The notes beneath the pieces were generated by a model. It did no database searches, was not told the origin of the DNA, and saw nothing but the letters and a program-made list of their open reading frames with translations. From NCBI RefSeq assembly GCF_036860695.1, contig NZ_JAYKGJ010000001.1, forward strand, positions 372,001 through 436,000: a stretch of DNA of 64,000 nucleotides, in the 5' to 3' direction. Position 1 is the first letter of the stretch. The number at the start of each line of letters is the position of its first letter. This DNA is from Rosettibacter firmus (lineage in GTDB: Bacteria > Bacteroidota > Ignavibacteria > Ignavibacteriales > Melioribacteraceae). A program made the position numbers and the translations under genes. This document shows, one piece after another, positions 14,353 to 50,495 of this stretch.

Positions 14353-14696
14353 ATTTTTTAACTCCATTTTATTAGTTAATATATTTTTATTTTCAAATAG
14401 AGATATCAAATTGATTTTCAAGAATGCTATCTTTATAACTGAGCGATATAATCTGTCTTAGCATCGGCTAACTCTTCTTGTTGCATTACATAAAATTTCA
14501 TTAACAATATTCAGTTATTACATTTTTTATAGGATTGTCTAAAATAATTTTAATTTCATTATTATCTAATGAAAGGTCAGCTCTCAAGGTAAGCATATTC
14601 GATTCTTACTTTTATAAGCAATCAATATTATCATTCAATTTAGATTTTTCTAAGTAGCTTTAGCCACGATCTCGATAAGCTCTAATGCCTATCGGA

Positions 14697-20663: not shown

Positions 20664-20666
20664 TGT

Positions 20667-28534: not shown

Positions 28535-28543
28535 ACGAGCCTC

Positions 28544-29338: not shown

Positions 29339-29339
29339 T

Positions 29340-29792
29340 TTATTTACCTCCAAATGATCTGTGATATGCTAAAATTGCTTCAAAAAAATTTGCAAAGTTA
29401 TTAAACTTCGTTTCCATTACTTGCTCATTATTACTATTAAGAACTTCATCAAGTGCTTTTTCTATAACTTTACGAAATTCCTTAGAACCTATGGTTCCTT
29501 TTCTTTCTGTTAAATAAGCAAGCCTCGGTTTTAGTAAAAGTAAATCTGACTTATTAAATCCTTTCATTTTCATTCTTTGAACTTCCCCATAAACATTTCT
29601 TATTTGTGAAGTTGTTAAAGCTTCTTTATCATCTGGATTATTTTGTTTTTTGGGATTATGGGGTTTTGTTAATTCTTGCCCAAAAGCTTCTGCAAAAGCA
29701 ATTGCTTCTTTATCAAGGCCATTTTGAATCCAGTGCGGAGCTTTTAGAATACCATCCACTTGTTGACCATCGATATTAAATGTTGTTGCCAT
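29340..29792 (-). CDS. csm2: Type III-A small subunit Csm2
   Basis: 150 aa, helical. The segment LTTSQIRNVYGEVQRMKMKG followed by LLLKPRLAYLTERKG is characteristic of Csm2. It forms the inner filament of the Csm complex. It directly follows csm1 and its 3' end supplies the ribosome-binding site for csm3. Confidence 0.9.
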   Translation of the reverse strand: MATTFNIDGQQVDGILKAPHWIQNGLDKEAIAFAEAFGQELTKPHNPKKQNNPDDKEALTTSQIRNVYGEVQRMKMKGFNKSDLLLLKPRLAYLTERKGTIGSKEFRKVIEKALDEVLNSNNEQVMETKFNNFANFFEAILAYHRSFGGK

Positions 29793-32333
29793 TTATTTAT
29801 TCTCCTTTCTTGTTAATAAATCTGTCCAATTAGCTATTATGTATAGTAATTGTATTAATTCTTGTTCAGTTTTAGAACTTGTAAAAAGTTCTGCAGCAAA
29901 TTCTTTAATTTCATTATCATAAGGATCTTTGTATTGATTTGCTAATCTTGTTAAAGAATATGATGCACGCCAGCGCCATTTTGCCCAATTACTATATTTA
30001 CCTTCTTCAAATTCATAGTAAATATTATACAAACGGGAAATTAAACCCTTACTGATTTTTTTATTTTCTTTATTCTGATTATCTAATCCTTTTTCAATCC
30101 ATTTATAAAATTTCACAACCCATTTTCTAATTTGCTTAAAATCATTCCAGCTTACTGGGGTTTTGTCATCAAGGAAACAAATTCCATTTTTAGTTTTTAT
30201 AGTGTTGCTTTCCTTATTTTTTCTTTCATTTCTTTTGGCTTTTTCTTCAAGCTCGCCAGCTTCTATTGCTGCTTTGTAGACTGGATATTTAGCATCAAAA
30301 AGTGAGATACCAGCTGAAATAGAAAAGTTATCATTATATGATGTAAATTTTTTGAACTCATCATTTATCCAAATTGCTATGTCAGGTAAAACTGACCAAT
30401 GCCCAACAATAAAAACATCATCACCACCAGAGTAAATAATTTCAATTAAATCTCTCACTTTATAATTATGTTTATTAAATATATTTGATAATCCTTCAAT
30501 AGGATCCCAGGAATAAAACTTTAGTTTATTCAAATAATGACTAAAGAAGAAATCAAGCATTAAAGAAAGTTGAACAACGCGTCCAAAAGTTGCGTGTTTG
30601 CCAAATCCGTCTTTAAAGATCTTTCCAAGATTATCGACATCAAGTCGAAGAACACCTAATCGTGGAATGCCTATCTTATTTTTTACTATTTCTTCGTAAG
30701 TATCTCCAAACCTCCAATCACCACCATAAAATTTAAAGCCTTTATTTGCATCGCCTTCCAGCTCAGTTATTTTTAGGCTATTTATTAAAAATTGTCTAGG
30801 TTCTTTAGCATTTAATTTATTTTCATACTTCCGTTCTTTGCTGATGTTAAAAGAGTTTAACCCTAAAACAGAATAGCCTTCTAAGACATCTTGATAAATT
30901 AGAGAATCAAAATTTTTTTTAAGATCGTTTCCAATTTTTTGGGAATAAAATTGTTCTTTTGAAATAAAATCATCGGTTAAAGTATCACCATCATAAACCT
31001 GATAAAATACTTCTCTATCAATAGTATGTTTTAAAAACTTAACTGGTGAGTGTTCATCGAGTTTTACCTCTTCGGCCAAGGTTTTCTTTTCTAACACAAC
31101 TTCTTTTTCAATCAAAGGAATTCCAGTATATGCACATTTTATTAGCTCGCCGTCAGGGCCAGAAGGTTCAAATAATGAATAACTCCAATTATTAGAAAGT
31201 TTTCTTTTCTTCTCTTTTTCTACTATAGAATTTAATTCATCCCACTTTTCGGAAATAGGATGGTCCTTTCCCACTTCATTATACTCTAAATCCCTACCAT
31301 TGATTAAAATTTTTCCGATGATTAAACCTAACGCTCCCTTATATTCTTCAAGAAACTTTTGTTCAACATTCATTTGAAGTTCTTCGAGTATTAAGTTTAC
31401 TTTAGGTGTATTGGACACAAAAAGATAAAATTTACCACCACTTGAATAAATAAGATTTGTTATTGGTAAATCGAGTTTATTTAAGAAGTAATAGGCAATA
31501 TTTTCCAACATTTGATTTAAATAAAAGGACCTACCTTTTAATGCTTTTGCTGCACCTTTATGACCAACATTATAAATATAATTCTGTATTCCTGTTATAT
31601 CAGCCAGAACAAGTTGATAGCGGTATTCATCTCTATTTCCAAAATCATTGAACTTGGTAATATCTTGACCAAAATTTTCAATCATAAATCTAAACATTGA
31701 AATTGCAATTGCAGCTGTTATTTTGGAATGTTCGAAAAGAGAAACATCCGAACGGGTTTTATATGACGAGGATGGAACACACCATAAATATTTTTTAAGT
31801 ACATAATAGAGAGTCTCAAATTCATCCTTATTTACATTGTTAATTTCTTTTTCAAATTTTTTCCACCAATTAGCATATTTTTCTTCTAGATTATCTAATT
31901 TGTATGCATCTTTACTTTCTGGGGACTTATACTCATTGTAATACAACTCACAAATATCCTGCAGATATAGTTTTTGATTTGATTTACCATAATCTACTTT
32001 AGAAAAGATTGATTCAAGTGGTTGTTGATTTTTAACAGTTGGATCTGGTTGTCTTTCACCACTTGCTAGATTATCTGCTTCACAAATAATTTCAGCAATA
32101 ACTCTTTCTGGACCTTTAATTTTACCTTTTAAAATCGATTCTCTTAAATCCTTTTCGTGATGATTGCTTACAATATTGGCAAGCATTTCATTATTAAAGG
32201 TACGATTCACAAATCCTGATGAAAGGATTATATGATTTTCTTTGCAGTTTATATTCCCTCTTTTTTCAAACTTTCCAATATCATGAAATAGTGCACCAAG
32301 TAGAAGGGTTTTTTCTTCTGGTGTCATAGACAT
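29793..32333 (-). CDS. cas10: Type III-A Cas10/Csm1 with HD nuclease and GGDD cyclase
   Basis: 846 aa. The N-terminal HD domain is intact (ALFHDIGKFEKR, H17-D18), so ssDNA cleavage is expected. The first Palm and the second Palm follow; the latter carries RLDVDNLGKIF (563-573) and IIYSGGDDVFIVG with GGDD at 636-639, the site that converts ATP to cyclic oligoadenylates. The C-terminal part is the helical D4 domain. An alternative start at the third codon (32327) is possible. It provides the second messenger for the CARF effectors encoded downstream (csx1, can2, NE0113-family) and perhaps for those of the neighbouring III-B locus. Confidence 0.95.
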   Translation of the reverse strand: MSMTPEEKTLLLGALFHDIGKFEKRGNINCKENHIILSSGFVNRTFNNEMLANIVSNHHEKDLRESILKGKIKGPERVIAEIICEADNLASGERQPDPTVKNQQPLESIFSKVDYGKSNQKLYLQDICELYYNEYKSPESKDAYKLDNLEEKYANWWKKFEKEINNVNKDEFETLYYVLKKYLWCVPSSSYKTRSDVSLFEHSKITAAIAISMFRFMIENFGQDITKFNDFGNRDEYRYQLVLADITGIQNYIYNVGHKGAAKALKGRSFYLNQMLENIAYYFLNKLDLPITNLIYSSGGKFYLFVSNTPKVNLILEELQMNVEQKFLEEYKGALGLIIGKILINGRDLEYNEVGKDHPISEKWDELNSIVEKEKKRKLSNNWSYSLFEPSGPDGELIKCAYTGIPLIEKEVVLEKKTLAEEVKLDEHSPVKFLKHTIDREVFYQVYDGDTLTDDFISKEQFYSQKIGNDLKKNFDSLIYQDVLEGYSVLGLNSFNISKERKYENKLNAKEPRQFLINSLKITELEGDANKGFKFYGGDWRFGDTYEEIVKNKIGIPRLGVLRLDVDNLGKIFKDGFGKHATFGRVVQLSLMLDFFFSHYLNKLKFYSWDPIEGLSNIFNKHNYKVRDLIEIIYSGGDDVFIVGHWSVLPDIAIWINDEFKKFTSYNDNFSISAGISLFDAKYPVYKAAIEAGELEEKAKRNERKNKESNTIKTKNGICFLDDKTPVSWNDFKQIRKWVVKFYKWIEKGLDNQNKENKKISKGLISRLYNIYYEFEEGKYSNWAKWRWRASYSLTRLANQYKDPYDNEIKEFAAELFTSSKTEQELIQLLYIIANWTDLLTRKENK

Positions 32334-34788: not shown

Positions 34789-34916
34789 TTCTCCCTCAAT
34801 TCTCATTAAATAAGAGTATGCTATTATAAATTTTTCAAAATTTTTTTAACCAAATTAATCTAATAGAAAATGCAAGCTTTGATCATTTAATGTATGAACT
34901 AAATTTTACATAATCC

Positions 34917-35563: not shown

Positions 35564-35855
35564 TAAACATCCCCAGTTTTACTTAAAGTTTTTTTCAATT
35601 TTATCATATTTAATACAAAGGTTGAATATAATAGAGTGTTCAAACCTAAACACTGAATTCTATCATATTAAAAATGACTGATTTTTCCAGAGTAAGTCGA
35701 ATTTTATTATTAGAGGATAAATTTTATTGTTGAAAAAAGGTCAATATGATGAAGTTTTTTACTATTTGATTTTGTCACAATTCTTTTTAATCGGGGATTT
35801 ACTTTTAATAGTATCCTTTGCGGTTTCATTTTAACTTAACCACCAAGAATGCAAA
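35564..35855. other. Intergenic stretch at the array trailer end
   Basis: 292 nt, A+T-rich, between the acidic protein gene and the first (trailer-end) repeat. No gene, hairpin or repeat copy was recognised. Confidence 0.4.
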
Positions 35856-36700
35856 GTCTCAATCCTTCTTTAGCAAGGAAATAAATTTTAATTTCTTGCA
35901 TTGGATTTTTCCGGCAGCTGCAATGCCCAAAGTGAACTGTCTCAATCCTTCTTTAGCAAGGAAATAAATTTTAATAGTGTCGACACGAATGATTGGCGCT
36001 CAATAAAAATGCAAGGGTCTCAATCCTTCTTTAGCAAGGAAATAAATTTTAATGATGCAAGAGTATGGTCTTGCCAAACAAACAACGGATGAAGTTATCA
36101 AGTCTCAATCCTTCTTTAGCAAGGAAATAAATTTTAATCCACAGGCGACGAAACTAACTGGAGATTAGCAGCTTTCATAAGTCTCAATCCTTCTTTAGCA
36201 AGGAAATAAATTTTAATTATCGCAAACATTTGTGATAGCCGAGGCCGGTTAAAATGTAAGTTGTCTCAATCCTTCTTTAGCAAGGAAATAAATTTTAATA
36301 TTCCTCAAACGACATGGCGGCGCTGATAATGACGATTCATTGTCTCAATCCTTCTTTAGCAAGGAAATAAATTTTAATGCGGCTACGAGAAAGCGGTGAA
36401 TCAATTGATTCACTATTATAAGTCTCAATCCTTCTTTAGCAAGGAAATAAATTTTAATGATATAGGTGAATATGCACGTAATAAGCTTGCTTTAGATACG
36501 GGGTCTCAATCCTTCTTTAGCAAGGAAATAAATTTTAATCGTTGGTCAACATGAAGACGAGGAATTCATTCGTGTCTCAGCATGTCTCAATCCTTCTTTA
36601 GCAAGGAAATAAATTTTAATTGCTTATGAGTTATGCTGAGTTTAAGGAAAAGCAAAATGATATGTCTCAATCCTTCTTTAGCAAGGAAATAAATTTTAAT
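35856..36700 (-). CRISPR. CRISPR array B: 11 identical 37-nt repeats, 10 spacers
   Basis: Repeat starts (plus strand) at 35856, 35939, 36017, 36102, 36181, 36263, 36342, 36422, 36503, 36584 and 36664. The plus-strand repeat begins GTCTCAATCCTTCTTTAGC and ends AAATTTTAAT. Spacers are 41-48 nt and all different. Read on the minus strand, the repeat ends ATTGAGAC, the usual 8-nt crRNA 5'-handle form, so the array is transcribed leftward like the cas genes and its leader is at the right, beside cas2. All repeats appear identical, so the array is well kept despite the broken cas1. Confidence 0.95.
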
Positions 36701-36873
36701 AGCCTCTTTTGTAATTCATTTTCAATGAACAACTTACAGGCATTATTTTCTGCATTTTGCTTACTAATATAACTTTTTTATATTAATTGTAAAATTTGAA
36801 GCTAAGTTATTTTAATTAAATAACTTAATTTTCTGCAGGAGCATTAATTAAAATAAAAATGCTCCTGCAATCA
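36701..36873 (-). promoter_or_regulatory. Leader region of array B
   Basis: 173 nt of A+T-rich DNA between the newest repeat and the cas2 stop. It holds a near-perfect palindrome AAGTTATTT...AAATAACTT (36804-36826), a possible integration-host or operator site, and the hairpin listed at 36834-36869. No clear promoter boxes. Confidence 0.5.
36834..36869 (-). terminator. Strong hairpin after cas2, probable terminator
   Basis: TGCAGGAGCAT (36834-36844) pairs perfectly with ATGCTCCTGCA (36859-36869) across a 14-nt A+T loop, 4 nt after the cas2 stop. This would end the long cmr-cas6-cas1-cas2 transcript before the array leader. No long T tract follows on the minus strand, so termination efficiency is uncertain. 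Confidence 0.55.
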
Positions 36874-38103: not shown

Positions 38104-38241
38104 ATTGATTTTAATTGCATTAATATTAAAGCCTGATAATAAGCTATAATATAAACAAAAAAAGAATATACTCTGCATTATCATTAATTACGATTAGAAA
38201 ATAATCGTCAAACAACATGTCAAAGAACTATTTTAAAAAAA

Positions 38242-39219
38242 TTAAATAATCTTTATAGAATATTTACCATATCCAAAAACTGTATTTTTACCTATATTAA
38301 AATGTGTAGCCAAGATTATATAAGGAATAAAATTAGACAAGTTTTTACCCTCTAATTCAATAGAACCTAAAAAACCACCGAATTCCATTTTTTTCTTTTG
38401 ACGATTGCTAAATCTCATAAATTCATTGTAATAAATTTCGTTTTTGGAAATTTTTACCCCCGAAAAATCTGTTATTACTTCTTTGAGTGAAACTTGATAA
38501 AATAAATTAAGAACAACATAAACTCTTCTTAAAATTGTTCTTAATACAATTTCGGCAGTTACTTGTTCCTTGTTTTTCAAAATACTTGAATTATTTTGTA
38601 GACGAAGTGGTGAAAGAAATGTGAGTAAAACTTTACTTGCATTTATATTAAGCATTGATGGTACAATCATATAAGGTTCCAATAGTTCTTTTAATTTTCT
38701 GGATTTTGCATTGTAAATTTCAATTAATATATCATCATTTGTAACTGAAAAAACTTTTTGAAGTTTCAATCTATACCTTTTAAAAGAAATGCCTATTCGG
38801 CCTAATTTTTCGAATGCTAGTATGAAATAAGGAAGCGGTTCAGGGAATAATGAGAACAATGAAACTCCTATGTCGAAAAATTCACCTTTAGAATAATCTA
38901 CCTTGTTAGCTGTTGTGGAATCTATAACAAATGGATGTGGTTGTTTCCTAACACCTTTTAAAAACCATAAATTATTTTCTTCAATTTCAGTTTCGAAGAC
39001 TGTAAAATAATAACATCTTTTTTTAAGTAAACACACTTCGCATATTTTATCGTCAGATATACAGACAGTTCCCTTTAAGGATTTTCCGAATGCACCTCTT
39101 AACATCGAACCCTTAAATGGAGGAAGCATTTTCATTTCATCTTCTACATGAAAACGAAATAAATATTTATGTATTGGCAATTCTGTTTTTAATAAATTAT
39201 TTAAAGTATCCATATCCAA
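38242..39219 (-). CDS. cas6: Cas6-type RAMP endoribonuclease (III-B module)
   Basis: 325 aa. It matches the PF10040-type Cas6: MLPPFKGSMLRGAFGKSLKG near the N-terminus, a CEVCLLKKRCYYFTVFET segment with three cysteines, and a C-terminal NIGKNTVFGYGKYSI glycine loop. It should process the array B transcript. Its start overlaps the end of cmr6 by 23 nt, so it is translated from the cmr operon. It is unrelated at sequence level to the other Cas6 at 32.7 kb. Confidence 0.87.
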   Translation of the reverse strand: MDMDTLNNLLKTELPIHKYLFRFHVEDEMKMLPPFKGSMLRGAFGKSLKGTVCISDDKICEVCLLKKRCYYFTVFETEIEENNLWFLKGVRKQPHPFVIDSTTANKVDYSKGEFFDIGVSLFSLFPEPLPYFILAFEKLGRIGISFKRYRLKLQKVFSVTNDDILIEIYNAKSRKLKELLEPYMIVPSMLNINASKVLLTFLSPLRLQNNSSILKNKEQVTAEIVLRTILRRVYVVLNLFYQVSLKEVITDFSGVKISKNEIYYNEFMRFSNRQKKKMEFGGFLGSIELEGKNLSNFIPYIILATHFNIGKNTVFGYGKYSIKII

Positions 39220-40051
39220 CAGATGTTTTTGCTCCTATGCCATATTTAGTTAATGTTTCTTCTGTAAATTGTCTTGCTAATTCTAGTAAGCTAAGTTTAT
39301 TATCATTCCATTCTACTTCTATATTTTTATATGTACCTAGTATAAATTTGAAATCTGTATTTGTAACTACTAAAAAATTAATTGGGGTAGGTTGCAAGTA
39401 ATCTGCAGGAGGTTCTAAATCTTGATAATATTCACCATAATGAGGATTCATAATATCAATAGAAATAACTTGATTATCTAAAAAAGTAGGGAAAGCATCA
39501 AAGAAAACTACACTCCCTTCATAATCTTCGTTTAATGCAGATTTTTTCTTACTCTCAGTTTCTTTGTTACATCCAAAAAGTAAACAGAATGTTTTACTTT
39601 GTGTAAGTGCTTTTTCTTCATCAGAATCAAAATAAAATTTAATTACATAATTTCTAACTGCTCCTTTTATACTTTGTCCAGGGATATAAGGGAACCCATA
39701 AATATGATGCAAAGTTATCGAAGTTTCTAAAACAGACTCTGTTCCAAGTCCAACAATTAACTTATCTACAACTGATTTTGTGAATATAACTTTGTTAGTG
39801 CCAAATAAACTTTTAGCTGCCTGTTCCAGTTCACTTATTTTATTATTTAATAATTTTGCAGGGAAAGCAAAAGAAGAACTCATAGCAGATTTTTTATTTA
39901 TTTTGCCTTCTTTATCTGTTAAGATGTATTTATTATACTTTAAGGAAAAATTATCCACTTTAGATAATAAAGATTTTACTAATTCTCTTGTATCTTCAGG
40001 TACAAGGATAATTTCATTTATTTCAGACGATGTATTTTTTACATTAGTCAT
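39197..40051 (-). CDS. cmr6: Type III-B RAMP protein Cmr6
   Basis: 284 aa. RAMP features: VGLGTESVLETSITLHHIYG, FPYIPGQSIKGAVRNYVIKF and the final GIGAKTSVGYGYFK glycine loop. Cmr6 caps the 3' end of the Cmr complex. The start overlaps cmr5 by 8 nt. Confidence 0.92.
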   Translation of the reverse strand: MTNVKNTSSEINEIILVPEDTRELVKSLLSKVDNFSLKYNKYILTDKEGKINKKSAMSSSFAFPAKLLNNKISELEQAAKSLFGTNKVIFTKSVVDKLIVGLGTESVLETSITLHHIYGFPYIPGQSIKGAVRNYVIKFYFDSDEEKALTQSKTFCLLFGCNKETESKKKSALNEDYEGSVVFFDAFPTFLDNQVISIDIMNPHYGEYYQDLEPPADYLQPTPINFLVVTNTDFKFILGTYKNIEVEWNDNKLSLLELARQFTEETLTKYGIGAKTSVGYGYFK

Positions 40052-40439
40052 TGATTAATCCCTCTGTAAATCTTCTAAGCCAGAGTAAAAAGTTTATAGT
40101 TTCTTGAGTTATAAGATTATATTTAAATGAATCCAGATTTATTACATCTTGAACAAGGTCTTTAAATGTACTCTTATTTTGAAAAATATCATTAGTAGTA
40201 TTGCATGTTTTAAGCCAATATAAAATATCGTCACCTAACTTATGATAAGCTTTACCCTCATTTTTATTTTGATCTTTAGAAAGCATAAAAGCAAATGTAG
40301 CTGCAAGACCATTAGTTTTAATCATCATCGGTAATTTTTTAGAATACTGTTTATATTCTTTTGCATAGCTTAACTGTTTTGTAGTATCTGCACATTGGAA
40401 AGCAAATGAAGCTCTTCCATTATCTAATTTACTGCTCAT
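40044..40439 (-). CDS. cmr5: Type III-B small subunit Cmr5
   Basis: 131 aa, helical. RASFAFQCADTTKQLSYAKE, then YSKKLPMMIKTNGLAATFAF is the Cmr5 pattern (a helix with KLP-MI--NGL). It forms the inner filament of the Cmr complex, equivalent to Csm2. It follows cmr4 by 1 nt. Confidence 0.92.
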   Translation of the reverse strand: MSSKLDNGRASFAFQCADTTKQLSYAKEYKQYSKKLPMMIKTNGLAATFAFMLSKDQNKNEGKAYHKLGDDILYWLKTCNTTNDIFQNKSTFKDLVQDVINLDSFKYNLITQETINFLLWLRRFTEGLIND

Positions 40440-40440
40440 A

Positions 40441-41349
40441 TTAAACCTCCATAAAATTTGCTTTTACAATTCCTTTACCTAAAGTAGCATTTCCCCCAAT
40501 CTGAATATAGGCAGGTAAATTATCTTTAATAAATTTCATCACACTTAGATCGTCTGTAAAATTACTTTTCACAGTATTAAAAATAGGTGCTGTAAATACT
40601 AGTAGATATAATACGGATTCTGCGGGTAAATATTCTTCGTTAAATAGAGCTCCTTCTTTAACAGTACCTGTACTATTATTTATTTTAGTTCTTGTTATTA
40701 TTTCTGTTGATAGTTTAACAAAGCTGGTAAATATTTCATCAGAAACAATAACAAGTTTATTATTAAGATCATCTATTTTGAGGTAATTGTATAAATTTTG
40801 AGCAAAATTTGTATCTACACTTGCAGTAAAAGAATATTCTTCTAAAATCATCTTATGATTTATTAATAAATTATTAGAAGCGACAATACATGTTTCCGGG
40901 TTATTTTGAATGTTATTAAGTTCTTTAGGTAGATTTAGTTTTTTTAGTCCTGCAATTTTTAAATCTTCGTCAAAGCGTTTTAATGCATAAGGACAAGTTA
41001 TCCAAGCAAAAACACCTTTAGGAGTTTTGACAGGAAATAACAAAATGCGTGCATCAGAAAAAGAAACTGCACCAGCATATTCTGTATTATTAAGAATGGT
41101 TTTAATTTTTTGATTAGCGTCTGCATCTTCATCATAGCCAAAAACCAAGTGAATATCCAGATTATCTTCGCCTAACTTATTTTCAAATGCTTCTCTCAAA
41201 CTACCTTTCAAAGACGAAGCTTCAATTTTGGGGAAATCAGTGTGTCCTTCTCTCTGTATCGGCAAATCGACAATGCCTAATTCATTTCCACTGCCTACGT
41301 GCATAGGTGTAATGTTTCTTATAAGTAAAATTGCTTTTTGACTATACAT
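40441..41349 (-). CDS. cmr4: Type III-B backbone RNase Cmr4
   Basis: 302 aa. NITPMHVGSGNELGIVDLPI shows the RAMP start and the aspartate (IVDLPIQRE) expected to cut target RNA; FPKIEASSLKGSLREAFE and the C-terminal IQIGGNATLGKGIVKANF loop complete the family picture. Cmr4 repeats along the crRNA like Csm3. It follows the CARF-RelE gene by 2 nt. Confidence 0.93.
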   Translation of the reverse strand: MYSQKAILLIRNITPMHVGSGNELGIVDLPIQREGHTDFPKIEASSLKGSLREAFENKLGEDNLDIHLVFGYDEDADANQKIKTILNNTEYAGAVSFSDARILLFPVKTPKGVFAWITCPYALKRFDEDLKIAGLKKLNLPKELNNIQNNPETCIVASNNLLINHKMILEEYSFTASVDTNFAQNLYNYLKIDDLNNKLVIVSDEIFTSFVKLSTEIITRTKINNSTGTVKEGALFNEEYLPAESVLYLLVFTAPIFNTVKSNFTDDLSVMKFIKDNLPAYIQIGGNATLGKGIVKANFMEV

Positions 41350-41351
41350 AG

Positions 41352-42515
41352 TTATATCTCCTTTTGTAATGGTATACTTATTAATTCTGAATTTTTTAAT
41401 ATTTCATATTCTTTAGCAAGAGATGTAGAATAATTATTGTCATCATATCTTGACCTAATAAACTTATAGTTATAGACAGTTAGCTTCATGTTTTCATATT
41501 TGTAATGTATTCTTATTTGAGTATCATTATTGTGATATTTATAAATCCAGGTATTATCTTTTAAATGAGTATGCTTGAAATATTTATCTGCAAACAAATT
41601 AAAATCGATATCCAATGAATTAAGTCTATTAATCAAAGTTGAGATTGCTTTATTCAAAATTGATTTGTTATTCTGTTCTTCTGAAAAATATTGAGAAGTA
41701 ACAGGTATGAAGAAAACATTATATCTTTCAAATTTATTTAGAAATATTAAACCAATGCTATTAAGCGACAAATAATGAAATTCTCCATCTGAAATCTCAT
41801 CAATAATATCAGGAAAATCAGAATACAGTAAGTTATTTTTCCTTAGAAATTCCTCTTTAGAAATTTCAATACCATTTTTTAAATGCTGAATAATATGATA
41901 ATATTTATGAAAGATACTCCAGCTTATATCAATAGGTGCCTGTGGTATCTCAATTAATTCATTACTTTCTTCATAGAGATAAATCATTTTAATATTGTTA
42001 ACTTGAGCCCACAATGTTAGATAAGGAATAACACCTTTGTAACCACCTGTAAAGTTCAAATATACATTGCGAAGTGAGCTATAATATTCAAGTTTATTAA
42101 TTAAGTTTGGCATTCCCTCTTTTAGAAATTTTTTGTTATCATAAACCTGCAAGCCTTTAACTAAAATTTTATCTGATACTTGAAAATCTTGATATGAAGG
42201 GAGCACTTCCGAAATTACATCTGAGCATATGTTTGATAGTAGAGTATCTGTAACAATAGGTATAATATTAATTCTTGTTTTTAATTTTTCATATAATTTT
42301 AGTGTGCTTATAACTTCTGCAGAAGAGCTTTTATCTTCTTGTAGTAAGGAAATTAGATCTGATTTCAATTTATCAATTTGATATTTGTTATTGTCAATAT
42401 ATTTTTCGTCGTAAGTTCTATCTTTCATATCGTCAATAAGATCTACATATTTTCTTTTCGTCTCATTAAATTTTGAAATGAGACTTGTTCCGATTGAAGT
42501 AATTAGAGTTATCAT
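41352..42515 (-). CDS. CARF-RelE-type cOA-activated mRNA interferase (Cami1-like)
   Basis: 387 aa. The N-terminal ~200 residues form a CARF domain of the APE2256 kind: MITLITSIGTSLISKFN and VYLNFTGGYKGVIPYLTLW (TGG at 156-158). A helical linker follows. The last ~80 residues (from about KHTHLKDNTWIYKYHNND, then QIRIHYKYENMKLTVYNYKF) resemble a RelE ribonuclease, with a W-x-Y/R strand, repeated beta strands and a late Arg/Tyr. CARF-RelE proteins (Cami1) cut ribosome-bound mRNA after cyclic tetra-adenylate binding. The gene is embedded between cmr3 and cmr4 with 4-nt overlap, so it is strictly co-expressed. RelE assignment is by pattern only; Csm6-like or ring-nuclease function is the alternative. 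Confidence 0.68.
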   Translation of the reverse strand: MITLITSIGTSLISKFNETKRKYVDLIDDMKDRTYDEKYIDNNKYQIDKLKSDLISLLQEDKSSSAEVISTLKLYEKLKTRINIIPIVTDTLLSNICSDVISEVLPSYQDFQVSDKILVKGLQVYDNKKFLKEGMPNLINKLEYYSSLRNVYLNFTGGYKGVIPYLTLWAQVNNIKMIYLYEESNELIEIPQAPIDISWSIFHKYYHIIQHLKNGIEISKEEFLRKNNLLYSDFPDIIDEISDGEFHYLSLNSIGLIFLNKFERYNVFFIPVTSQYFSEEQNNKSILNKAISTLINRLNSLDIDFNLFADKYFKHTHLKDNTWIYKYHNNDTQIRIHYKYENMKLTVYNYKFIRSRYDDNNYSTSLAKEYEILKNSELISIPLQKEI

Positions 42516-43567
42516 ATTACATTTCCTGCCAATGTTATTCCAAAACCTAATTTATCAAGATTATAATCAGAAATTGAATTTAAGTAAAAATCATCCACTA
42601 ATGTTTGGGCATCGCCTTCATAAGTAAAATAATAAACTGAACCTTCTTTAACTGCTCGATACATAGGCTTGGGTTTATTACTCTCCATATCGAAACCTCC
42701 TATTGATTTAAAGCCGGGAACTGCTGCAGCAATCAATTTCATATTGTACTTCTTAAATAAAGGTTTTTCTAAATCTGGTAAGCTACCATTTTTAAAAATT
42801 GAAGGGGTGAGTAAATAAAGTTTCACAATATTGGAAGTTAATTGAGGTTTAGAGATAGACAGTTCATCAACAATCGATTTAAAGCATGCAGCTTTTCCTT
42901 CACCACCTAATTTTAATAAGCCTTTACTTTCAACATCAAGTCCATTAAAATCGATAACAAAGGAAATTTTTAATCCATTTTTTTCAAGTCGTCTCATTCC
43001 AACTCTATAAAGCATTGATTCTGCAGCAGATTTTGTAATGTTACTTCTTCCAATCCCGATCTTAGGTTCAATTGTTATATATTTACTTAACTTAACAGCT
43101 GGCAGCTTATTAAAATCTCCGGATAGATAACTATTAAAATAAGATAAGCCCAAAAGTACATCTTCCTGAGGTTTTTCAACTTTTAGATTAGTTGAATTAA
43201 ATAAAAATCTATCGAGTTGGTAATTGCTTATAGCAGGTTTATCTGTTAATGACAATTTATAAAGTGGTAGCGTATCATCATCGATTTTTTGAACATCAGT
43301 AACCAAATCAGCGGGTGCTGGTAGAAACAAATTGTCATCAATAAAAAAATAAATTCCTTTGATTTTCAGGTTTAATGTTGGATCGTCATCTTTATTTGCT
43401 TTACTAAGTAAATCCAAATGTTTTGAGAAATATAAAGTTCTCAAAGCACCATAAAACACAGATGGAGCGGGTGGAAAAATTCCATTAGCCCAATTTTCTT
43501 CTCCCATTGCAAATGGTTTTCCATCTTTAAAGAACAAAGTATCTATGGCATCAATTTTTATTTTCAT
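42512..43567 (-). CDS. cmr3: Type III-B RAMP protein Cmr3
   Basis: 351 aa from ATG 43567, which has a GGAGG box inside the cmr2 end; an ATG at 43579 overlaps that box. KIDAIDTLFFKDGKPFAMGE and the following FPPAPSVFYGALRTLYFSKH are diagnostic for Cmr3. The family's C-terminal glycine loop is FGITLAGNVI. Cmr3 holds the crRNA 5' handle together with Cas10. Confidence 0.92.
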   Translation of the reverse strand: MKIKIDAIDTLFFKDGKPFAMGEENWANGIFPPAPSVFYGALRTLYFSKHLDLLSKANKDDDPTLNLKIKGIYFFIDDNLFLPAPADLVTDVQKIDDDTLPLYKLSLTDKPAISNYQLDRFLFNSTNLKVEKPQEDVLLGLSYFNSYLSGDFNKLPAVKLSKYITIEPKIGIGRSNITKSAAESMLYRVGMRRLEKNGLKISFVIDFNGLDVESKGLLKLGGEGKAACFKSIVDELSISKPQLTSNIVKLYLLTPSIFKNGSLPDLEKPLFKKYNMKLIAAAVPGFKSIGGFDMESNKPKPMYRAVKEGSVYYFTYEGDAQTLVDDFYLNSISDYNLDKLGFGITLAGNVI

Positions 43568-45254
43568 TACTGCCTCCATTTAAATACTTTGCGATGAAGT
43601 CAATTATATTAAGTGCGGATACGAAATTTTTCAGTGATGTACTTGAATAATATAATCCAAAAACATTATCAATTACTTTTTGAATTATCTCATCCTTTTT
43701 TTCTTTTGCAGCTTTTGAATTTTTTATTAATCTCTCCAGTTCCGTCAAAATCATTTTATCGTGAACTTTTTCTTTTTTATGAATAGCTTCTGAAAATTCT
43801 ATCTGGAAATTCTTAATAAAGCTGTTAGATATTTCATTTGAATTAAGAATCTTTGATAATAAATTAAAATGGTCTAAAACAAAAATGTTATCTCTATGCC
43901 AATTATAGATTGTCTTAATAATCTCTCCAGAATGCTTCATAACAGAAATTGCAAATGCATTTTTTTCACTGGAAATATTCTTTGCATCTTTTTCTAGCTT
44001 ACGACATTCATCTATTACAACATTTAATGGGGTTTTATAATGCGCTATAACTATACCAGCAGAAAACGTAATTTTATCTTTCAAAAAATTATTAACCTGT
44101 GAATTAATAATATTATCAAAATTTTTGTGCAGGGTTTTTAATTCTGTAAACAAATAATTCAAATTCATAAAAGCCATAAAATCATCGCCACCAGAATAAA
44201 CTATGCTACCAGCAGATTCATGTAACTTTGTTTGATTTATAAAATCATTTAATGATTTAGCTAAAGTTTTTTGAAATTCTTTTAGTTCGTGTTTATAATT
44301 TTCTTTAAGTTTTTTGCCAGCGACTATATCCCCCATTGAATCTGCATCAAACATAACAAGTGAATAGTAAGATGGGAAAGTAAGGTTTTTAGATGTTGCA
44401 TATTTTTTTAATTCCCTATGACATTTAATTATTTCATCAATAGATTTTATAAGTGAACTGAAGCCCTGTTTTTCAAAATACTTTTTATTAAGATTTTCTT
44501 CGTAATAAAGCTGGGCATCAAATAAACTACCAAAACATTGTTGGAATTTATTAAGTATATTTTTCCCTTCGTCATTATTCTCTATTTTATTAATAGTATC
44601 ACTTAATGCTATTTCAGCTGTTGATGGATAACTTTTATCAATGTAAAACCTTTTAGTAAAACATATAGCACATAATCCTTCTCCAGGATTGATAAGACCT
44701 TTTATTTGATCAGAAATTTTATTGTCATCATTTTTTATAATTACATTACGTTGCCCGCATATAGAACATTTTCTACCACGTTCTTCCAACTGAATAAAAG
44801 GTCTATAATTTTTAATTGAAGATAATTGCTTTTCAACATTTTCATAATCTTCGTAGTAATCACTATTTAAATTAATAGCTGTCCAGTAAATTTCGAGAAA
44901 CGATTCAATTTGCTTTATAAAAATTTTATTACTTATTAAATCCAGCTTAAGATATTTAATGAAAATTTCATTAGCTTTTTCTTTAAAATAATTTCGAACT
45001 GAATTTTCAACTATCTCTCCAAGTTTTTGAACTTCTTCATCATTTTCTTTATTGATGAGTGCCAAGAATCTATTGGGCAAATGCTTATTTGATTTAAAGG
45101 GGAAAATAATTTCATTATCATTAAAATGATTCATTGCGTTTCTTATTAAATCTGAAATTAACTGACTCCCTGTAAATAAATCTTTAGTTTTTCTTGCCTG
45201 GGCAATAAAAGATTGAACAGGACTTATAGTAAAAACAAAAAGATAACTATTCAT
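43551..45254 (-). CDS. cas10: Type III-B Cas10/Cmr2 without HD domain
   Basis: 567 aa, on the short side. It begins directly with the Palm-like Cmr2 motif VFTISPVQSFIAQARKTKDL, so there is no N-terminal HD nuclease. A zinc site uses C163, C166, C195 and C198. The cyclase Palm carries LVMFDADSMGDIVAGKKL (299-316) and IVYSGGDDFMAF with GGDD at 355-358. It should therefore make cyclic oligoadenylates but not cut DNA, so immunity of this system would depend on the signalling effectors and RNA cleavage. The start overlaps cmr1 by 4 nt. Confidence 0.93.
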   Translation of the reverse strand: MNSYLFVFTISPVQSFIAQARKTKDLFTGSQLISDLIRNAMNHFNDNEIIFPFKSNKHLPNRFLALINKENDEEVQKLGEIVENSVRNYFKEKANEIFIKYLKLDLISNKIFIKQIESFLEIYWTAINLNSDYYEDYENVEKQLSSIKNYRPFIQLEERGRKCSICGQRNVIIKNDDNKISDQIKGLINPGEGLCAICFTKRFYIDKSYPSTAEIALSDTINKIENNDEGKNILNKFQQCFGSLFDAQLYYEENLNKKYFEKQGFSSLIKSIDEIIKCHRELKKYATSKNLTFPSYYSLVMFDADSMGDIVAGKKLKENYKHELKEFQKTLAKSLNDFINQTKLHESAGSIVYSGGDDFMAFMNLNYLFTELKTLHKNFDNIINSQVNNFLKDKITFSAGIVIAHYKTPLNVVIDECRKLEKDAKNISSEKNAFAISVMKHSGEIIKTIYNWHRDNIFVLDHFNLLSKILNSNEISNSFIKNFQIEFSEAIHKKEKVHDKMILTELERLIKNSKAAKEKKDEIIQKVIDNVFGLYYSSTSLKNFVSALNIIDFIAKYLNGGSNENKN

Positions 45255-46231
45255 AAAATAGTCTCCATTTCATTTGCAAGATTATTATTAAATTCTTCTA
45301 TTACTTTATTGTAAGCTTGGTTATTTAGATTTTTATGCAGGTTATCTGGATATTTATATGGTATGCAAAAAATATAACCCTCATATTGATTATCTTTATT
45401 TTGAAAAACAGAAAGGAAATATGGTTTTGCATGGCGTTCTATATAAGTCATAGTTTTTTTATTATCTATTATTGGAGCACTAATATACTGTCGCTTATTA
45501 AATACATGTTTACCTTCTAATCCTGTTCTTACTTTATGGTAAATATCACCTAAATTTGCTAATGCTTTATCCCATGTTTCACAACTTTGATGTAGTTTAA
45601 ATACTTTTGTATTATTAGATATCGCAGTATATTTTGCTGGTAATATAGTTTTTAAATTATTCAATATTTCTATAACTTTTTCTACATTATCTAATCCATA
45701 ATCATTAATCTTAAACTTCCCAAAACCATTTCTACACTTTGAGCCTAGCCCTCCAACGATAGAAGCTAATAGTAGTGCATTTTCTATTTCTGTAATTTGC
45801 TTATCTGATAAATTGTCATAATTAAAAATTAGTTTAAAGGAACTATCTGGGCATATATATTTTCTTGAAATTCCATTTCTGGGTTCAACTATCCCAAAAC
45901 ATAAATAATTCAATATGTTCATATTTATGTATTTACCTTTAACCTCTACTTCTTTATTATGCAACGGAAAATTTTCTCTTCGACACTCTATATTATTTTG
46001 TTCAATTCTTATAATTACTTTGCTTTTCATTTGATTGTCATTATTACTCCCACCAAAAATTTTAATATCGTTTTGATGTAATTGTTCGATGGATAAGTTT
46101 CCATGCATAGCACGCCACCAATATCTCAAAACTCCTTTAAAAGAAGGAGCTCTAAGTTCTGCTTCTTTATTGTTAGCTCCACCTAAAAACATAGGTGTAA
46201 TTACTTTACAGTTATAAATTCTTTCTATCAT
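45251..46231 (-). CDS. cmr1: Type III-B RAMP protein Cmr1
   Basis: About 326 aa from ATG 46231, which has an AAGGA box; an upstream extension to 46282 lacks similarity. YNCKVITPMFLGGANNKEAE and LRAPSFKGVLRYWWRAMHG are the Cmr1 signature. LLASIVGGLGSKCRNGFGKF is the glycine-rich RAMP loop. First gene of the cmr operon, 267 nt after the Lon-Csx3 gene stop. Confidence 0.92.
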   Translation of the reverse strand: MIERIYNCKVITPMFLGGANNKEAELRAPSFKGVLRYWWRAMHGNLSIEQLHQNDIKIFGGSNNDNQMKSKVIIRIEQNNIECRRENFPLHNKEVEVKGKYINMNILNYLCFGIVEPRNGISRKYICPDSSFKLIFNYDNLSDKQITEIENALLLASIVGGLGSKCRNGFGKFKINDYGLDNVEKVIEILNNLKTILPAKYTAISNNTKVFKLHQSCETWDKALANLGDIYHKVRTGLEGKHVFNKRQYISAPIIDNKKTMTYIERHAKPYFLSVFQNKDNQYEGYIFCIPYKYPDNLHKNLNNQAYNKVIEEFNNNLANEMETIL

Positions 46232-46498
46232 ATACTTATTCCTTAAGTAATTCTTAATTAATAAGAGGTGTATAGAATCCACTTTTAAAAATTTTTTCGA
46301 TGTTTTTATGTAATTAATAATATATAAGAAGAAATATTTATTATTTTTTGGTGAGAATTAACTGAACATAATTCATACAATAAAAAGGCTGGATGATTAG
46401 GAAAAAACAATAATTAAATTAATCATATACCCTCATTTATTTTATTTAATAGTAACAACAACTGTAAAATTTTTTCGAATTTTATTGAAAGCAAAAAA

Positions 46499-47575
46499 TT
46501 AAAAATTCCCTTCTATTCGAAAGAAAAAATACTCCCCCGGTTTTAATTTTGATACACCACTATTAGATGTTCTAATTACAATTGCAGTATTTTTATCTGC
46601 TTCTTTATAACTGGGATAATTAACAGCTAAAAAGTTTGGTAATGAATTAATTATTTCAGGGAAACTAAAAATCATTGTATAAACAGAAATTGGGGCACGA
46701 CCATCAATTATAACTCCATTTCCTTCATCCTTAAATAGCATAAGATTATTTCTAATAAACAAATTAATTTTTGTAAACTCATTTATTTTAATCGATATAT
46801 TAGTGGGTTGAAAAGAAACAACTTTGTGTTCTCCGAATTCAGAGCTTGCCAGTCTTTTTTCTAATAAAATATATCGTTTGACAAATTTGGATTTATAAAT
46901 TTTTTTAATCGATTCATCAAATATCTTTGCGATTATTGTATTTAATTCTTTGTTATCATCATCCGGATATATAAAATACTTTACATCAGGGAACTCATTT
47001 TTAATTGTTTTAAATTTTTGTTCAATCCCTTCAACCTTTTTTAAAATAAATTTATTGTCTACTCTTTCTATATCACCTGTAAAACAGTATTCATTAGAAA
47101 TTTCCTTTCCGGTTATAAATGAAATGATTGATAAGACCAAAGGTAATTTATATGAATCACCTTCAAGATGAAAATTATTATCCATAAATGAGAATGTTTT
47201 AATGCCGCACTTAAGCTCGCTTAAATCCCATTCAAGAATCAATAACTCAGGGAATTCTTCTTTAAGATAGCTTTCTATTAATTCAATACTAAGATTTATA
47301 TGCTTATTCCAATCATCAATAATTTTTATATCAGAGCTATAAGAATCTGTAACTTTAATTTTTTGTATTATCCCATCATTTTTTTGAACATCAACTAAAG
47401 GAAGGAATGTTTCGCCTGGTTTATTATCTATAAATTCTTTATAAAATTTTTTAATAGTATTTTTCTTGTTTTCAAAAAATATTTTATCATCAAGGTTACT
47501 GGTTTTGCAATTCTCACATAAATTTATTGCAGAAATGAATTTCCCTTCTTTGAATAATTTTTCTATCTCATTCAT
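46499..47575 (-). CDS. Lon-type peptidase fused to a Csx3-like domain
   Basis: 358 aa. Residues ~60-230 match the Lon S16 proteolytic domain: FHLEGDSYKLPLVLSIISFI with the expected catalytic serine at 141, CFTGDIERVDNKF, and KKVEGIEQKF with lysine 187 at the position of the Lon catalytic lysine. There is no AAA+ motor. Residues ~250-358 resemble Csx3: GVIIDGRAPISVYTMIF, then LAVNYPSYKEADKNTAIVI. The Csx3 ring-nuclease YDPR motif is not conserved (NYPSY), so this part may sense rather than destroy cyclic tetra-adenylate. The start overlaps the upstream gene by 8 nt. By analogy with CalpL (SAVED-Lon), cOA binding would switch on proteolysis of a partner encoded in the same operon. Confidence 0.75.
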   Translation of the reverse strand: MNEIEKLFKEGKFISAINLCENCKTSNLDDKIFFENKKNTIKKFYKEFIDNKPGETFLPLVDVQKNDGIIQKIKVTDSYSSDIKIIDDWNKHINLSIELIESYLKEEFPELLILEWDLSELKCGIKTFSFMDNNFHLEGDSYKLPLVLSIISFITGKEISNEYCFTGDIERVDNKFILKKVEGIEQKFKTIKNEFPDVKYFIYPDDDNKELNTIIAKIFDESIKKIYKSKFVKRYILLEKRLASSEFGEHKVVSFQPTNISIKINEFTKINLFIRNNLMLFKDEGNGVIIDGRAPISVYTMIFSFPEIINSLPNFLAVNYPSYKEADKNTAIVIRTSNSGVSKLKPGEYFFFRIEGNF

Positions 47576-48431
47576 AATTTATTAAGAAATTAGCATAATA
47601 ATCTTTATCATCAATAGTTAATGTGATTGTATAAAAAGCTTCGTCATCAAATTGTTTATTTATTGGTAAAGAATATCGATTAGTATCAGGAATGATTAAT
47701 TTATCAGCAATTAAGAATGATTCCCCATTTTCTAATATTTCTATTTTATCTATGTTTTTGTGTTTATCTGTAATGATAATCAAGTAATATTTATCGTCAA
47801 CACATGATAATCTTAAAATCATATCAGAAATATTAATTGGCAACTCATTTTTAAAATTGCTTACTCTTTCTTTATCCCAGAATTCCATGTTTTTGTATTC
47901 AGATTTAGAATCATGTGCAGCAAGTAAATAATAATCTGCTGATTCATAATTTTCAATTTTTGGTAAAGTTATAATTATAGGTTCAGTAGCATCTTCTTCA
48001 TAAATCTCTAATGCTCGTTCACGCAAGCTTGTTAATGACTCTAACAATTCATTTAAAAGTATTTTCTGCACTTCATCATAATTAAAAGTTGTAATTTTCA
48101 ATGAATTATTAATTTTTAATATAGTTTGTTGTTCTACTGTGCCAATGTAAACACTCAAGATTTCAGTAGGGATTACACCATCAGTTATCCTTATTACAAA
48201 TCTTTCTTTTGCAAAAACTTCATTGGCAATTGAATCATCTTTTAGTGAGACATCATTTTCATCTGCAAGATATTTGATAGGTGTTATCAAAGAAGCTCTT
48301 ACTACTTTATCTGAGATAATTTCAGTAATAATAAAATCCACTCCTTTAGAGGGGCATTTCCACATTTGACCAGTTTTTAATTCCTTTGGTGGGTTTAGCA
48401 TGTATTCTAAATATTTATATTCATTTGCCAT
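47568..48431 (-). CDS. Unknown protein with SH3/MazF-like N-terminus in the Lon-Csx3 operon
   Basis: 287 aa. The N-terminal ~90 residues (KTGQMWKCPSKGVDFIITEI, then VVRASLITPIKYLADENDV) follow the G-x-x-W start, strand and PIT/PLT pattern of SH3-like/MazF-type barrels, though the match is weak. The rest has a polar helical part and a C-terminal all-beta stretch (IPDTNRYSLPINKQFDDEAF). No catalytic motif is visible. It sits between the sigma-like gene (22 nt upstream) and the Lon-Csx3 gene (overlapping), so it is a likely partner: protease substrate, anti-sigma factor or adaptor. Confidence 0.55.
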   Translation of the reverse strand: MANEYKYLEYMLNPPKELKTGQMWKCPSKGVDFIITEIISDKVVRASLITPIKYLADENDVSLKDDSIANEVFAKERFVIRITDGVIPTEILSVYIGTVEQQTILKINNSLKITTFNYDEVQKILLNELLESLTSLRERALEIYEEDATEPIIITLPKIENYESADYYLLAAHDSKSEYKNMEFWDKERVSNFKNELPINISDMILRLSCVDDKYYLIIITDKHKNIDKIEILENGESFLIADKLIIPDTNRYSLPINKQFDDEAFYTITLTIDDKDYYANFLINYE

Positions 48432-48453
48432 AAAAATATTTTCCTAATCTTAT

Positions 48454-49497
48454 TTATATATCACTCAGATTAAATTCAGATTCAATATGATCCATAAATT
48501 TTTCGATTGCTTGATATAATTGTATATCGTCGGATTCAAATAGATTTTTAAGATCTAAAATTAATAGTATATCTGATAGATAATTTTTAATAGTTTGTAA
48601 AGATAATTTTTTATTGAATCTCAATAATATATAATCGCTTACTTCCTGAAGTGTAAAACCTGCTTTATAGTAAAGATAAAAACATATTTTATAAAATTTA
48701 GATTTTGTATCGTTCTGTAAGTAATAAGTAATTCTTTTATTACTTACTTCTACAAATTTATCCAGGTCTATATAATCTAAATCTAATTTTTCATTGCTTT
48801 CAAGATTAGTTTCAGATAAGGAAAAGGAATTATCATCTTCATCTTTCTCGTCAATAATAACAATAGAAAATTTATTAACATCACTATTACTTAAAAGTAT
48901 CTCTACTATATCAGAGACTGTTAGATAATAATTTTCTAAATTTTTAAGAATATCATAAACTGCTTCGTATACCGATTGACCATTTATTTTCCCAAGTGTA
49001 TCTTCACTATTCTGTCGAAGGATAAAGAATTTTCTGATTTCAACATATCCATCATAGACTTTATTATTTTTAGAATTACTCACAGAGTAATACTGATTTT
49101 TACGAATTATTTTGTTTTCATCAAGCAACCTTTCAAGTGCTTTTATTACAAGATTTTTCAAATTCGGATATTCGCTTGCTATCAGTCCTTTATTACTAAT
49201 TTTTCTATAACAGGATTTAATAACATTACTAACATAAGATACAATTACCTTATCGTTAGCATCGCTCTTCATTAGCTTTTCTTTCCAGAATTCATTTTTC
49301 TGAAAAGATTCTAAAAGAGTTGCGATTGTTTCTTGAGTTAGTTCGTGAATTATTTCCTTATCAAATACTCTCCTATCATTAAGAAAACTTCTGACTATAT
49401 TTTCAGTCTGCTTAACAAGCTCCTTAAAGTAATTGATGGTAGCATTATTGGAAATAATTTCTCTAATAATGTCAGGAATTTGAATTTCTGCCCCCAT
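48454..49497 (-). CDS. Sigma-70-family-like protein (CalpS-like)
   Basis: 347 aa. The N-terminal ~150 residues show a region-2-like helical bundle (EIIHELTQETIATLLESFQK and VSYVSNVIKSCYRKISNKG). The C-terminal part has a region-4-like helix-turn-helix: FYLYYKAGFTLQEVSDYILL, then LSLQTIKNYLSDILLILDLK. The middle holds an acidic insertion. ECF sigma factors and the CalpS protein share this layout, but the match is judged by pattern. It overlaps the upstream MazF-like gene by 26 nt. In CalpL systems protease cleavage of the MazF-like CalpT releases the sigma factor; the same logic is suggested here. Confidence 0.62.
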   Translation of the reverse strand: MGAEIQIPDIIREIISNNATINYFKELVKQTENIVRSFLNDRRVFDKEIIHELTQETIATLLESFQKNEFWKEKLMKSDANDKVIVSYVSNVIKSCYRKISNKGLIASEYPNLKNLVIKALERLLDENKIIRKNQYYSVSNSKNNKVYDGYVEIRKFFILRQNSEDTLGKINGQSVYEAVYDILKNLENYYLTVSDIVEILLSNSDVNKFSIVIIDEKDEDDNSFSLSETNLESNEKLDLDYIDLDKFVEVSNKRITYYLQNDTKSKFYKICFYLYYKAGFTLQEVSDYILLRFNKKLSLQTIKNYLSDILLILDLKNLFESDDIQLYQAIEKFMDHIESEFNLSDI

Positions 49498-49951
49498 AAG
49501 ATGTATCCAGAATATTTGTTAATTTATTTTTAAGTTTATAACTAAGCTCTGTTAATTTCCTTTCAAATAATCTGGTATATCTATATTCTTTATAATGTAT
49601 AAGAAAAAATGTGGTCTTTTTTAATCTTTCGGGTGGAACTTTTGCAATTAAAATGGTGGGTTCATATTTATGAACTCTTGTAGTACCGGGTGCAAATAGA
49701 ACAGTATGATAATCGGTATAAGGAACGCTATTATCAAGTATTACAACCGGTCTATTAGCATCCTTATAATTTCTTCTTTCCTGACCAAAACTAATGTGTC
49801 TATCGTGTAATGCCCATATATCACCAAAATTTAAAAATACATCTTCGTTTATCCTGTTAATCATACGGTTTATTAGTCTTACTTCTCGCAGTTTTATGTT
49901 TTTATTGGTGTGTAATTTTTTCTTTAAGTATTCCAGTGATATAGTCTGCAT
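49472..49951 (-). CDS. MazF/PemK-like protein (CalpT-like)
   Basis: 159 aa. After a ~40-residue helical start comes a PemK/MazF barrel: FGDIWALHDRHISFGQERRN (43-62), RPVVILDNS (67-75) and VLFAPGTTRVHKYEP, the P-x-T loop. The C-terminal ~50 residues are basic and helical. MazF proteins are mRNA interferases; in the CalpL system a MazF homologue instead holds the sigma factor inactive until cut. First gene of the four-gene operon that ends in Lon-Csx3, so the same role is plausible. Without an antitoxin gene beside it, toxin function alone would be hard to explain. Confidence 0.7.
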   Translation of the reverse strand: MQTISLEYLKKKLHTNKNIKLREVRLINRMINRINEDVFLNFGDIWALHDRHISFGQERRNYKDANRPVVILDNSVPYTDYHTVLFAPGTTRVHKYEPTILIAKVPPERLKKTTFFLIHYKEYRYTRLFERKLTELSYKLKNKLTNILDTSYGGRNSNS

Positions 49952-50142
49952 ATATCAATTAAAAAATATTTTTAAAAAATTATAAAAATCACTTTTTATA
50001 AATAACAAATATGAAATATTTATTCAATAAAGAATTGTTCAATTATTGGAATAAAATTTATGATTTCAAAGTAATTTTAAGTTTAGACATTGAGTGTAGG
50101 GAGACTAATGAGGCGGGAAAAATTTAAGAATAAAAATGATTG

Positions 50143-50495
50143 TGGAGGTGCGGGGAGTCGAACCCCGGTCCGAAGTTACCTTTCTATGAACATCTACACA
50201 CTTAGCTTATCTTTTAAGTTTCATCTCGTTAACACCGATAAGCAGGTTTTAACGAGACTATTCCGTTAGAATTTCGCCTCGTCTACACGGACACTCGACT
50301 CGGCTATCGTATCTAATACGACGTTCTATCAAATCCCGATACGAGAGGATTTGAAGAACGGCTGCTTTTTATTATTAAGCAGCTAATGCGTAGTTATATT
50401 CGGCACTTATTTTTTTACCGTCGTTTAACGTGTCTACGGTGAACACGGTGTGCAGTTCAAAGAACGAGTAACTTCGTCGAAACCACGTCACCCCC
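50143..50495 (-). ncRNA. ssrA: Transfer-messenger RNA (tmRNA)
   Basis: The 5' end GGGGGTGACG (from 50495) pairs with the 3' end CACCTCC (50150-50144), giving the acceptor stem; the T arm with GGTTCGACTCC is at the 3' end. The reading frame for the tag encodes roughly AEYNYALAA before a TAA, followed by a TAA-rich stretch, the usual tmRNA arrangement. A CCA end is only partly encoded. It rescues stalled ribosomes. It starts 6 nt after the stop of the adenosyltransferase gene, so it is probably transcribed from a promoter inside or before that gene. Its 3' end faces the defence island, a common integration site. Confidence 0.96.

Follow-up and report, generated by a model that had tools for sequence, protein, structure and literature searches.

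Analysis of a 64,000-nucleotide stretch of the Rosettibacter firmus genome (contig NZ_JAYKGJ010000001.1, positions 372,001 to 436,000; hereafter the window) revealed a cassette of four genes on the minus strand (46499..49951), next to a type III-B CRISPR operon, in which a motor-free Lon-type protease is fused to a Csx3-like C-terminal domain. Its partners encode a MazF-fold protein, a sigma-like protein and a second, probable MazF-fold protein, and we lean towards the interpretation that the cassette is a switch by which type III CRISPR signalling could release a sigma factor through proteolysis. The pairing of a Lon protease with a Csx3-type sensor is apparently undescribed. An earlier model reading made from the letters and their open reading frames (the sequence-only reading) knew of no such protein, and none was found in the full-text literature searched, which contained few subscription papers; the survey of CARF proteins by Makarova et al. 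(2020) may mention one. PADLOC and NCBIfam hold no model for it either.

The cassette is transcribed leftwards, from 49951 to 46499, with a tmRNA gene (50140..50495, minus strand) immediately upstream and cmr1 (45251-46282, minus strand) ahead, 216 nucleotides beyond gene 4. tmRNA genes are a frequent integration site of mobile islands. Gene 1 (49472..49951) encodes a PemK/MazF-fold protein of 159 amino acids with an isoelectric point of 10, gene 2 (48454..49497) a divergent sigma-70-like protein of 347 amino acids, gene 3 (47568..48431) a protein of 287 amino acids (33.5 kDa, isoelectric point 4.6) with a predicted MazF/SH3-like N-terminus carrying a GQ.W motif, and gene 4 (46499..47575) the Lon–Csx3-like protein of 358 amino acids. 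Genes 1 and 2 overlap by 26 nucleotides and genes 3 and 4 by 8. All four are found together in 15 cassettes, between which identity falls as low as 12–20%, and they are therefore real genes kept as a unit rather than chance open reading frames.

Homologues were needed to establish both halves of the gene 4 protein, because the window sequence alone scores below the Pfam cut-offs for Lon_C (E = 0.1) and Cas_csx3 (E = 0.21). Lon_C was matched in 11 of 13 homologues (best 5e-10), and a profile of the family retrieved the archaeal Lon domain 1xhk (E 2e-20) and CalpL (7qda, E 4e-6) from the PDB. Gly139, Ser141, Ser152, Gly167, Lys187 and Glu194 are invariant in the 13 aligned homologues, with Ser141 encoded at 47153-47155 and Lys187 at 47015-47017. 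An AlphaFold (AF2) model built from four sequences, with a mean predicted local distance difference test score (pLDDT) of 66 overall and blocks of 58–90 in the Lon part, matches Lon domains with Z 12–15 and a root-mean-square deviation (rmsd) of 2.6–4.9 over 143–188 residues. Residues 48–231 (46883..47434) are assigned on this basis as an S16 Lon peptidase domain with a Ser141/Lys187 pair, as the sequence-only reading had proposed. An AAA+ motor is absent from the chain, in which a short helical N-terminus precedes the peptidase domain, and no SAVED domain was matched in Pfam or PADLOC.

The remaining 126 residues (233–358; 46502..46879) are supported as a descendant of Csx3 by comparisons that draw on the whole family. 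HHalign of the 15 C-terminal domains against true Csx3 sequences gave 93.8% (score 43.7), with unrelated profiles at 0.0–0.2% and 100 column-shuffled versions at no more than 0.3% (score 12); CRISPR-linked members alone reached 68% and unlinked members alone 60%. The family profile also found the Csx3 structures 6yud, 6vjg and 3wzi in the correct region (E 0.02–0.04). In one homologue, from genome G216, the domain passes the curated Pfam Csx3 cut-off (22.2 bits, neighbours being in frame, against 21), this protein being split across two contigs with an exact overlap of 141 bases, and two motifs of true Csx3, YDPK and AHG..Y..G, are preserved in the G395 homologue. The Csx3-like C-terminus claimed by the sequence-only reading is thus supported once homologues are brought in. 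Since Csx3 and STAS folds are alike, an anti-anti-sigma (STAS) identity was also considered for this domain and rejected (HHalign 0.1%), although the fold search did not separate STAS from Csx3.

Csx3 (Crn3) is a cA4 (cyclic tetra-adenylate) ring nuclease. In the A. fulgidus enzyme H60 and D69 are essential, the single mutations H60A and D69A each abolishing activity, conservation is absolute at H57 and H80, and the residues in contact with cA4 are S44, G45, R46, I49 and R71 (PMC7371418). In our alignment, on which all residue correspondences rest and which follows the numbering of that study, D291-G292-R293-A294-P295-I296 of the window protein falls on Csx3 positions 44–49 and keeps G45, R46 and I49. 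H60 is replaced by S311, which follows a conserved N310, D69 by Y320 and R71 by S322; H80 corresponds to R335/T336, and no histidine stands at H57. The same five positions are replaced in a 52% identical homologue from a Melioribacter sp. metagenome-assembled genome (G498), which is placed in the same genus. In G414, G001 and G011 a second histidine (NH) stands in the column of H60. Because the catalytic positions of Csx3 are replaced, the window protein is unlikely to be an active ring nuclease, and part of the predicted cA4-binding loop (Gly-Arg-x-Pro-Ile) is retained. The H60A mutant of Csx3 still took up cA4, and the mixture turned milky, which its authors read as fibres (PMC7371418); CalpL is activated through cA4-driven oligomers or filaments (PMC11417357, PMC12751052). 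From these two observations we infer that a Csx3 domain could act as a clustering sensor after the loss of catalysis. On contig C217 of G414, a true Csx3-type gene (NGRTPIWL, YDPRL; L095:2751-3683) lies on the same contig as a Lon–Csx3 cassette (L051:9608-10750), a possible eraser alongside a reader.

Gene 1 is assigned a MazF fold: the window protein matches Pfam PemK at E 3.8e-4, its family profile matches MazF structures at 3e-7, and HHalign to MazF gives 96%. The RP motif (R67) is retained, as is a conserved Thr that follows P88; we take these two to mark the Arg/Thr active-site pair of MazF. For gene 3, whose profile matched no relevant PDB chain, HHalign relates the N-terminal domain to the MazF family of SH3 barrels (81%) and the protein to gene 1 (62%), so that it too probably has a MazF fold; we consider its product a candidate anti-sigma factor and Lon substrate. 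The PemK/MazF-like and SH3-like labels of the sequence-only reading, including the overlap of genes 1 and 2, agree with these results. Its sigma-70-like label for gene 2 held in part. HHalign against extracytoplasmic function (ECF) sigma factors recovered region 4 at 75% and region 2 at 20%, in the correct order, and Sigma70_r4 was matched by Pfam in a few homologues; no sigma factor chain in the PDB was matched by the gene 2 profile. We therefore describe gene 2 as a divergent sigma-like protein, with moderate support in region 4 and weak support in region 2. The Pfam, PADLOC and NCBIfam libraries returned nothing for gene 3 of the window and weak or unrelated names for gene 2, and none of the four genes matched a PADLOC or NCBIfam family with a credible score.

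Profile searches located the 15 cassettes in 14 genomes of the phylum, of which 12 belong to Ignavibacteriales (G459 carrying two cassettes) and two to another family. Gene order is mostly constant; lon comes first in G216, and a contig end removes part of the first genes in G066 and G395. A further match in G351 covers the C-terminal part only, contains several stops and is probably spurious. Single-sequence searches with the cassette proteins gave no PDB, plasmid or viral match, and one protein searched against genome contigs gave none. Eight of the 15 cassettes lie within CRISPR loci, whose layouts vary (III-A, III-B, cas1-cas2, RT-cas1), in line with the CRISPR link claimed by the sequence-only reading. 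The window cassette adjoins its III-B locus, that of G009 III-A csm genes, and that of G498 a 28-repeat array, Csx20 and a CARF gene. In G458 the neighbours are CARF-RelE, cas2, RT-cas1 and a 30-repeat array, with Cas10 15 kb off; in G001 they are cas1-cas2 and a 25-repeat array, with Cas10 about 11 kb off; and in G414 an array of at least 17 repeats, with Cas10 27 kb off. The second G459 copy accompanies III-A cas10-csm2-csm3 and is split over contigs C524 and C339, their joining being inferred, and Csx20 adjoins lon on the short contigs of G216. A small conserved, secreted-looking protein (ARIGS..DI.SEF) follows lon directly in G458, and in G459 it separates lon from cas10 (L054:10929-11357, L089:3852-4262). 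Among the genomes of the order, 10/12 carriers have Cas10, versus 38/152 others (one-sided Fisher p = 9e-5, kinship ignored), and both carriers outside the order also have Cas10. The outcomes that the sequence-only reading had named as contradicting it, a prediction lacking the S16 or Csx3 fold or homologues found mostly without CRISPR genes and without sigma/MazF neighbours, are not what the analysis gave, the modelled Csx3-like domain matching Csx3 and other folds equally well.

A conserved gene pair extends this association. It encodes a predicted coiled-coil/membrane protein of ~400 amino acids and a lipoprotein of ~310 amino acids with a von Willebrand factor A (vWA)-like motif (LDLSDRIS), belongs to no Pfam or PADLOC family, and was found at 19722-21857 (minus strand) in the window and at L091:7684-9820, L053:1735-3859, L072:3259-5359 and L013:4180-6591. 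In the window the pair neighbours the CARF genes, and in G498 the Cas10-Csm genes. In G424, G216 and G011 it immediately adjoins the Lon cassette; some cassettes without adjacent cas genes therefore stand next to genes that accompany type III loci elsewhere.

A mechanism is proposed in which the sigma-like gene 2 product would be kept inactive at rest by its MazF-fold partners, namely gene 3 and perhaps also gene 1. On virus attack, Cmr2 or Csm1 would make cyclic oligoadenylate; the GGDD cyclase motif is intact in both of these window Cas10 proteins, consistent with their designation as its source in the sequence-only reading. The Csx3-like domain of gene 4 would bind this ligand without cutting it, and such domains may, like true Csx3 around cA4, form a head-to-tail stack that clusters the Lon domains. 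Once activated, the Ser/Lys protease would cut one of the MazF-fold inhibitors, gene 3 being the likeliest, and so release the sigma factor to drive a defence transcription programme. Ligand, clustering, substrate, sigma activity and target genes are here modelled on CalpL/CalpT/CalpS and on Csx29–Csx30–CASP-sigma, and another ligand is possible in unlinked cassettes or in carriers without Cas10.

The analogy with CalpL/CalpT/CalpS of Sulfurihydrogenibium (PMC11417357), which the sequence-only reading had drawn, is supported, and CalpL is itself among the profile matches. In both systems an AAA+-free Lon protease bearing a C-terminal nucleotide-sensor-type domain is encoded in a type III locus alongside MazF-fold and sigma or sigma-like partners, and the 33.5 kDa of gene 3 is close to the 33 kDa of CalpT. 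The cassette differs in carrying a Csx3-like domain where CalpL has SAVED, a second MazF-fold gene where the Calp system has one, a more divergent sigma-like protein, and homologues outside CRISPR loci as well. SAVED-Lon was not found in 277 sampled genomes of the phylum, among which the longest SAVED open reading frame (G095) adjoins a CD-NTase-like gene. The C-terminal domain of gene 4 shares ancestry with Csx3/Crn3 (PMC7371418) and has retained three residues of the cA4-binding loop (G45, R46 and I49), but it is fused to a protease and has its catalytic His/Asp/Arg positions replaced. The type III-E Craspase (Csx29, Csx30, CASP-sigma; PMC10028731) resembles the proposed cassette in that a CRISPR-triggered protease cuts a sigma-factor inhibitor, but there a CHAT protease is gated directly by Cas7-11, with no second messenger and with unrelated proteins. 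The MazF/PemK fold is common to gene 1, with its Arg-Pro and Thr motif, and to the predicted N-terminus of gene 3; unlike MazF/PemK, the cassette lacks the usual antitoxin partner gene and its proteins have extended N- and C-termini. On our best reading, the Lon–Csx3 protein stands outside CalpL, having no SAVED, and outside active Csx3, having lost the catalytic residues; it would work like the first and descend in part from the second.

We regard as evenly balanced the fuller proposal that a nuclease-dead Csx3 is a cyclic-oligoadenylate reader gating Lon and a sigma factor, with reader and eraser Csx3 on one contig in G414 and with the cassette serving a non-CRISPR signal in relatives. If it is true, Csx3, known as a terminator of cyclic-oligoadenylate signalling, also exists as a receptor, and CRISPR-driven proteolytic sigma release would have been built from different sensors in different lineages (SAVED, Cas7-11 gating, Csx3). 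With its four purifiable proteins, the family would allow sensor swapping to be tested directly on a Lon protease, and its presence both inside and outside CRISPR loci would allow one to ask which came first.

Several results weigh against a switch governed by type III signalling. Seven of the 15 cassettes lie outside CRISPR loci (G184, G373, the first copy in G459, G011, G066, G395 and G424), three of them (G066, G395, G424) on short or cut contigs; Cas10 was not detected in G184 and G373, which are near-identical sisters; and the co-occurrence statistic takes no account of kinship. R71 and D69, both replaced in the window, face cA4 in Csx3. The HHalign probability for Csx3 drops to 17% when G216 and G395 are left out. 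A model of the domain alone is modestly confident (pLDDT 70), and its matches to Csx3 structures (Z 3.2–3.9, rmsd 3.5–4.5 over 83–99 residues; best Z 3.9, rmsd 3.5 over 83) are on a level with those to other folds, STAS among them. Cat1, a filament protein that binds cA4, is likewise on a level with STAS and unrelated chains (Cat1 at Z 4.3, rmsd 3.7 over 104), and Foldseek on the C-terminal model gave no match at E < 0.001. The sigma assignment of gene 2, finally, draws mainly on region 4. For the claim of the sequence-only reading that Csx3 senses cyclic oligoadenylate, the loss of catalytic residues and the partly kept binding loop are in its favour, and the replaced R71/D69, the unlinked cassettes and the two carriers without Cas10 are not.

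The unlinked cassettes and the two carriers without detected Cas10 could instead reflect a general stress regulator of a sigma factor, whose Csx3-like domain senses another ligand and which was recruited to CRISPR loci in some lineages only or travels with them in defence islands. The CRISPR-linked copies do not form one clade, about three changes between linked and unlinked states are needed on the tree, gene 3 is longer in non-CRISPR versions with N-terminal helices that resemble an anti-sigma domain by eye (no Pfam match), and Csx3 domains have been reported outside CRISPR (PMC7159879). We nevertheless consider this explanation unlikely, if the most serious of the alternatives, in view of the enrichment of Cas10 among carriers inside and outside the order, the varied CRISPR loci that hold the eight linked cassettes, and the cassettes of G424, G216 and G011 that adjoin the gene pair of the type III loci of the window and G498. 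The MazF-like features of gene 1, namely its match to MazF structures and the retained R67 and Thr, would also suit a protease that frees or activates a MazF-type ribonuclease held by its partners, so that cleavage leads to growth arrest and not to a transcription programme. This is rather improbable, given that the cassettes include the sigma-like gene wherever the contig lets it be seen and that the MazF homologue of the Calp system is an anti-sigma factor (PMC11417357). A Csx3-like domain that acts as a functional ring nuclease and ends signalling, and not as a sensor, would accord with the known activity of Csx3 (PMC7371418) and with the fused ring nucleases of other CRISPR effectors (PMC12409355), but is very hard to reconcile with the replacement of H57, H60, D69, R71 and H80 in both the window protein and its 52% identical relative, and the window encodes a predicted ring nuclease, Csx20, separately.

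The type III-B operon ahead of the cassette (39197..46282, minus strand) comprises cmr1, cmr2/cas10, cmr3, a gene for a CARF-RelE effector, cmr4, cmr5 and cmr6, and a second type III locus (26290..32333, minus strand) comprises csm5, csm4, csm3, csm2 and csm1/cas10. Between the two lies a CRISPR array of 11 repeats (35845..36702, strand not assigned), and three further CARF effectors are encoded in the window. Two genes that adjoin Csx20 and the array (33979-34806 and 34979-35563) have no credible family match. The cas1 gene beside the Cmr locus (37519-38184) looks frameshifted, with an intact-looking cas2 behind it, and a full-length second cas1 is found at 17529-18605. Degenerate repeats (ACAATTCCACTATGGTTCGATTCATAC) at 12532-15213 resemble the CRISPR repeat of G498 (GTCACAATTCCACTATGGTTCGATTCAAAC) and could represent a decayed array near this second cas1.

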